Assembly: GCA_021776295.1 (NCBI GenBank)
Contig: JAJFGE010000072.1
Span: 1-36,198, forward strand
DNA: 36,198 nucleotides
DNA from: Hyphococcus sp.
Lineage (GTDB): Bacteria > Pseudomonadota > Alphaproteobacteria > Caulobacterales > Parvularculaceae
Reading direction: 5' to 3'
In this document: piece after piece, positions 1 to 180 of the stretch
Numbering within the stretch: position 1 is the stretch's first letter
How the letters are laid out: each line of letters begins with the position of its first letter
Made by a program: the position numbers and the translations under genes
The notes under the pieces: model-generated
What the model was told of the DNA's origin: nothing
What the model saw: only the letters and a program-made list of their open reading frames with translations
The model's database searches: none

Positions 1-99
1 GAGGCGCTCGCCGCCCACGGCGTCACCCCACATCATCGCAAGAGCTTCGCCCCAATCCACAATATGTTGTATGCGGACTCTTCTCCGGCAATGTGTTGA
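1..99 (+). CDS. rnhB: Ribonuclease HII, C-terminal end (partial)
   Basis: The window opens inside an open frame that encodes 32 residues and stops with TGA at 97-99. The tail reads HGVTPHHRKSFAPI, which matches the conserved C-terminal segment of RNase HII (HG..p.HR.SFaP). RNase HII cuts the RNA strand of RNA-DNA hybrids and removes misincorporated ribonucleotides. Synteny supports the call: rnhB lies immediately upstream of ccrM in Caulobacter and relatives, and ccrM follows here. Only the extreme C-terminus is present, so the catalytic residues cannot be seen. The identification rests on this short motif and on the neighbour. Confidence 0.72.
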   Translation, partial: EALAAHGVTPHHRKSFAPIHNMLYADSSPAMC

Positions 100-180
100 A
101 AGGTTTTGTTAACACTTTAACGCCCTGACTCCGTTCATAAAATTTCACTTCGACTCTTGACGGCAGACTCCCGCCGACTC
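76..180 (+). promoter_or_regulatory. ccrM leader with five GANTC methylation sites
   Basis: GACTC occurs at 76-80, 127-131, 152-156, 166-170 and 176-180, all upstream of the GTG chosen as the ccrM start (214). GANTC is the CcrM target and is expected about once in 256 bases of even composition, so five in 105 bases is a strong excess. Two TTAA half-sites (109-112 and 117-120) lie among them. They resemble CtrA half-sites, but the spacing is 4 rather than the usual 7. In Caulobacter, ccrM transcription is activated by CtrA and damped by methylation of leader GANTC sites, and the same logic is inferred here. No clear -10/-35 pair was assigned. Confidence 0.6.

Follow-up and report, generated by a model that had tools for sequence, protein, structure and literature searches.

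GANTC sites within the core promoter of ccrM suggest that the methylase gene is controlled by its own mark

In a 36,198-nt stretch of DNA from Hyphococcus sp. (the window; an entire contig from a 3.08-Mb assembly whose closest named relatives are Marinicaulis MAGs), the gene ccrM is preceded by five GACTC sites, three of which (152, 166 and 176) are predicted to be parts of one compact sigma70-type promoter, TTGACG-N17-CACAGT. GANTC thus lies inside the −35/−10 core of the promoter, an arrangement that suggests direct control of ccrM by the mark that its enzyme is predicted to write. The features of the region are as follows, with conservation counted in 23 genus leaders (the window, a second copy in the assembly and 21 relatives).

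1–99, + strand: 3′ end of rnhB (ribonuclease HII), from its translation; stop codon at 97–99
76–80, + strand: GACTC in the rnhB coding sequence; 12/23 genus leaders retain a GANTC hereabouts
108–121, + strand: degenerate CtrA-like box, GTTAA-CACT-TTAAC; relatives have TTA[AC]-N6/7-TTAA
127–131, + strand: GACTC between the CtrA-like box and the A-rich stretch, in a possible upstream promoter P1
134–145, + strand: A/T-rich stretch TTCATAAAATTT, candidate −10 region of a CtrA-type P1
152–156, + strand: GACTC abutting the −35 element; 16/23 genus leaders
157–162, + strand: −35 element TTGACG of the core promoter P2; TTGAC is invariant in the genus alignment and recurrent class-wide
166–170, + strand: GACTC in the −35/−10 spacer; 21/23 genus leaders and 85/96 panel promoters
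176–180, + strand: GACTC sharing its final base with the start of the −10 element, fixed at TTGAC-N14; 22/23 genus leaders
180–185, + strand: −10 element CACAGT (C-A-n-n-n-T), after a 17-bp spacer
191–197, + strand: predicted transcription start region of P2, placed from the position of the −10 element
202–206, + strand: likely ribosome binding site AGGGG, from the sequence
214–1338, + strand: ccrM, GTG start, 374 aa; N6_N4_Mtase and RAMA domains by Pfam

The product of ccrM combines PF01555 (E = 1.5e-67) with a C-terminal PF18755 domain (E = 2.5e-18), and this domain pair, the position beside rnhB and the conservation of orthologs in relatives are those of the orphan methyltransferase CcrM. 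It is predicted to methylate GANTC, an indirect pointer being the approximately 4-fold depletion of GANTC in the genome. In the alignment of upstream regions (24, from the genus and family), the GTG at 214 matches the ATG of relatives; a longer reading frame from TTG157 is probably spurious because this TTG belongs to the −35 element. The rnhB translation corresponds to the C terminus of a 232-aa RNase HII-like open reading frame that lies directly upstream of ccrM in a relative (L091). The same assembly holds a second ccrM (G000:C136:1035-2165, L031), which is preceded by an rnhB end of its own and by a region with five sites, and encodes a protein that is 94% identical; the two copies in this MAG are probably due to a mixture of strains.

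The five GACTC sites lie exactly where the earlier note had placed them, at 76, 127, 152, 166 and 176. GANTC is otherwise scarce, the window having 34 occurrences where dinucleotide shuffles would lead one to expect 141. Across 20 other contigs of the genome (230.6 kb), which served as a background sample, we counted 230 sites, or 1.0 per kb where composition predicts 3.8 per kb, making GANTC the least frequent among 24 pentamers of equal make-up. The second rarest in 230 kb of this genome is CTNAG, as in other alphaproteobacteria (PMC3973325). No 105-bp stretch of the 230.6 kb contains more than three GANTC sites, and the Poisson probability of finding at least five in such a stretch is 1e-7 with the genome density, or 2e-5 if the density is tripled for intergenic DNA. 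Chance does not account for the cluster. Throughout the 3.08-Mb assembly, the string TTGAC-N2..5-GANTC-N4..7-GANTC is confined to the two ccrM loci, and 29 strings that resemble this promoter in form, found in 230 kb of the genome, are all free of GANTC. Looser GANTC triples recur at ccrM across the genus, but other, scattered triples are about as numerous as in a reversed control; loose clustering alone is therefore unspecific, and it is the promoter geometry that is specific.

We assembled a panel of 194 ccrM upstream regions, 88 of them from genomes of the order, the window among them, and 106 from the rest of the class. GANTC density is 19–28 per kb at 50–150 nt upstream, against about 1 per kb at 300–450 nt, so that related leaders are indeed enriched, whereas a lack of enrichment was among the grounds that the earlier note had named for giving up its reading; a link between the cluster and CcrM autoregulation is likely. 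A scan of TTGAC-Nd-GANTC for d = 4–29 found 99 genomes at d = 14, with minor peaks of 30 at d = 4, 14 at d = 5 (the spacer site) and 11 at d = 21, and 0–4 genomes at every other distance. The fuller string TTGAC-N14-GANTC-A-N3-T occurs in 98 of the 194 regions, compared with 0 or 1 for each of 23 permuted pentamers. Among 96 aligned promoters, the second position of the −10 element (−11) is A in 100% and the sixth (−7) is T in 98%, although neither was used for selection. The spacer and −10 sites occur together in 53/106 class and 35/88 order genomes, and in none of the controls.

A role for the cluster in landing or titrating CcrM, or some other protein that binds GANTC, with no promoter switch, would fit a GANTC density just upstream of ccrM that is far above background in many genomes; we consider this very improbable, as the sites are locked to the −35 and −10 positions in a way that goes beyond mere density. 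The two core sites differ in their constraints. The position of the spacer site shifts by 2–5 bp within a promoter of fixed total length and fixed TTGAC-N14-GANTC, and its central base is free (C29, G25, A24, T7) while GA and TC are kept. Because this site slides and its N varies, selection in the spacer appears to act on the CcrM target as such. In the 96 promoters, the N of the −10 site is restricted to C or A, so the promoter or a reader adds constraint there. This restriction is also what could be said for the GANTC-like letters being a by-product of promoter sequence preference, since the site is partly constrained as promoter sequence; such a coincidence is scarcely credible when other pentamers give 0–1 against 98 and when, at the spacer site, GA and TC persist around a free N even as its position moves. 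RNA structure in the leader was likewise considered and set aside, as it fits poorly with the free N of the spacer site. A scan of the window for known RNA families found none in the ccrM leader, its sole match being a glycine riboswitch (RF00504, 66.9 bits) at 24093–24184 on the minus strand. The −10 element upstream of ccrM in the window, CACAGT, is weak, and a strict scan for the sigma70 consensus finds no promoter in this region.

Upstream of the core, the evidence points to a possible second promoter. In roughly half of the genus leaders, the CtrA-like box starts at a fixed distance of 48–50 bp from the downstream TTGAC; the stretch at 134–145 is A-rich throughout the genus alignment, and the GANTC at 127 is present in 20/23 genus leaders, with N being A, C or T. 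A proper Caulobacter-type CtrA box (TTAA-N7-TTAA, or N6) is absent from the window, which has only the degenerate copy. If a CtrA-type promoter does lie upstream of TTGAC, its transcripts would carry the sites 152–176, and a graded sensor of hemimethylation within a transcribed leader could be imagined; the recurrent box and A-rich stretch speak for it. Two sites are also said to lie 3′ of the Caulobacter ccrM promoter, reportedly described by Stephens in 1995, and this too was counted in favour of such a sensor. We nevertheless regard it as improbable, as TTGAC-N14-GANTC-A-N3-T is a promoter geometry and persists in Rhodobacterales that have no CtrA-like box. The earlier note had seen five sites in the leader forming a graded array, ever more closely spaced towards the start codon. 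The cluster is real, but site 76 lies inside rnhB rather than in the leader, and only three sites, in and around the −35 and −10 elements, form the conserved core. The spacings are set by these elements: the 14- and 10-bp steps follow from the TTGAC-N14-GANTC geometry, and the 51-bp step simply reaches into rnhB.

The architecture is widespread but not universal. Of the 56 families sampled from the class outside the order, 30 have TTGAC-N14-GANTC-A-N3-T, as does Parvularculaceae. A promoter whose core contains one or more GANTC sites precedes ccrM in 38/49 genomes of the window's own family and in 27/29 leaders of Paracoccus and other Rhodobacterales; it was found in 0/39 genomes across the four other families of the order and in 0/27 leaders of Caulobacter, Phenylobacterium and Brevundimonas. 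It was also not found within the 260 nt searched in 31/106 class genomes (about 29%), and is therefore not obligatory. The suggestion that Caulobacter leaders have only a couple of GANTC sites is roughly right at best: 8 such leaders average 4 GANTC per 260 nt, and 7 of the 8 contain a close pair, GANTC-N1..4-GANTC. We tentatively propose that the commonest ccrM promoter of Alphaproteobacteria may be a self-targeting core, TTGAC-N14-GANTC-A-N3-T with a further GANTC that slides within the spacer, at which RNA polymerase reads methylation without GcrA, and that the CtrA-driven promoter of Caulobacter may be a derived exception.

As to mechanism, we lean, on balance, towards a ccrM core promoter that is built from CcrM targets and would be autoregulatory and replication-gated, on when hemimethylated and off when fully methylated, and read by the polymerase with help from GcrA. 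Promoter activity would be tied to a methylation state that is set by CcrM and reset by the replication fork. Passage of the fork would leave the promoter hemimethylated and permissive, and ccrM would be transcribed; new CcrM would then restore full methylation and turn the promoter down, constituting a replication-gated negative feedback. The reader would be the RNA polymerase–sigma70 holoenzyme directly, aided by GcrA where it is present, and in the window's genus the upstream CtrA-like box may provide a second, timing input.

Methylation precedents from Caulobacter favour autoregulation through the core promoter. There, ftsZ and mipZ respond to methylation, being activated by it, through a GANTC between −35 and −10 (PMC3708114); cell-cycle transcription start sites with GANTC between −35 and −10 form one temporal class (PMC4287350); GcrA binds domain 2 of sigma and promotes open-complex formation at methylated promoters (reviewed in PMC7403470), and its footprints on ctrA P1 differ between fully methylated and hemimethylated DNA (PMC3667746); and ccrM transcription is stated to occur only when the chromosome is hemimethylated (PMC2217572). 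We hold the sign of the switch, hemimethylated-on and fully-methylated-off, with less confidence than autoregulation as such. Several points count against our preferred reading: ftsZ and mipZ are activated, not repressed, by methylation; the precedent for methylation restraining ccrM is Caulobacter, whose ccrM promoter does not have this architecture; about 29% of the class genomes show no such promoter in the 260 nt searched; and the −10 element of the window is weak.

The same promoter may work with the opposite sign, methylated sites recruiting the GcrA–sigma70 holoenzyme so that CcrM activates its own gene, with CtrA or proteolysis setting the timing. We regard such a positive feedback as possible, though doubtful. 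It would be in keeping with the behaviour of GcrA and of ftsZ and mipZ just described, with the presence of gcrA in the window genome (PF07750, E = 1.1e-48), and with a C at −12 and no G at −14, which resemble a promoter in need of help. Positive feedback alone, however, would fail to restrict CcrM to late S phase, and the distribution of GcrA does not follow that of the core sites. A survey with the Pfam profile (E 1e-5) gave no match in 20 of the 106 CcrM-bearing class genomes, and a further search of these at E 10, run alongside two positive controls, yielded none above the family cut-off, although a divergent GcrA may escape such a search. Within some families (f70, f139 and f151), the lack of a detectable GcrA is consistent. 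Core GANTC occurs in 14/20 genomes without detectable GcrA and in 61/86 with it (Fisher's exact test, P = 1), and two core sites occur in 8/20 and 45/86, respectively (P = 0.46), both P values being rough owing to the relatedness of the genomes. The architecture is thus not restricted to GcrA-bearing genomes, which weakens GcrA as a necessary reader.

In the replication-gated negative feedback that we prefer, the ccrM promoter would be a variant within the known class of CcrM-responsive promoters. It resembles the ftsZ and mipZ promoters of Caulobacter crescentus, which also have a GANTC (CGACTC there) between −35 and −10 of a cell-cycle gene, kept in near relatives (PMC3708114); it differs from these, which were shown to be activated, in being the promoter of the methylase itself, with two or three sites in a fixed geometry across many families. 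With ctrA P1 of C. crescentus (PMC3667746, PMC4287350) it shares a GANTC in the core promoter, and it would share fork-coupled hemimethylation, GcrA as a reader and possibly the pairing with a second, CtrA-controlled promoter, but ctrA P1 has a single site near −29 and no CcrM autoregulation. The ccrM promoter of C. crescentus controls the same gene, has a close GANTC pair before the start and is thought to be methylation-responsive (PMC3973325, PMC2217572); it differs in being CtrA-activated, and the TTGAC-N14-GANTC promoter is found in 0/8 Caulobacter leaders. In the part of the report that we consulted (PMC4433202), the Sinorhizobium meliloti ccrM promoter is CtrA-bound, likewise implying a CtrA input, and a GANTC-in-core architecture is not discussed. 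A comparative study from 2010 counted GANTC upstream of alphaproteobacterial cell-cycle genes and drew no conclusion on control (PMC2877005). Our search of the open-access literature, with subscription papers outside its scope, found no description of the conserved ccrM core promoter, and within that literature the variant appears to be hitherto undescribed. A parallel from further afield is provided by Dam-regulated promoters such as pIN of IS10, in which a methyl-adenine site over the −10 element alters RNA polymerase activity without a dedicated activator. That case differs in involving GATC and Dam, a repressive effect, a transposase gene and a gammaproteobacterial setting.

Similar TTGAC cores with two GANTC sites were also seen at the promoters of ftsB-like genes in other alphaproteobacteria (L202, L209, L210 and L215), and the products of L202 and L209 were confirmed as DivIC (PF04977). 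In three further genomes (G461, G411 and G440), the TTGAC-GANTC-GANTC string recurs close to contig ends or, in one genome, 56 times, as if mobile elements carried methylation-controlled promoters.

What is known of how the CcrM level is controlled comes mostly from Caulobacter. Should the majority of alphaproteobacteria rely on a promoter composed of CcrM targets, the methylase would be under direct epigenetic self-control, which could be tested on a 30-bp promoter in ordinary species such as Paracoccus. Such tests would tell whether sigma70 polymerase reads m6A beside the −10 element without GcrA, and the model organism Caulobacter would be atypical in how ccrM is controlled.
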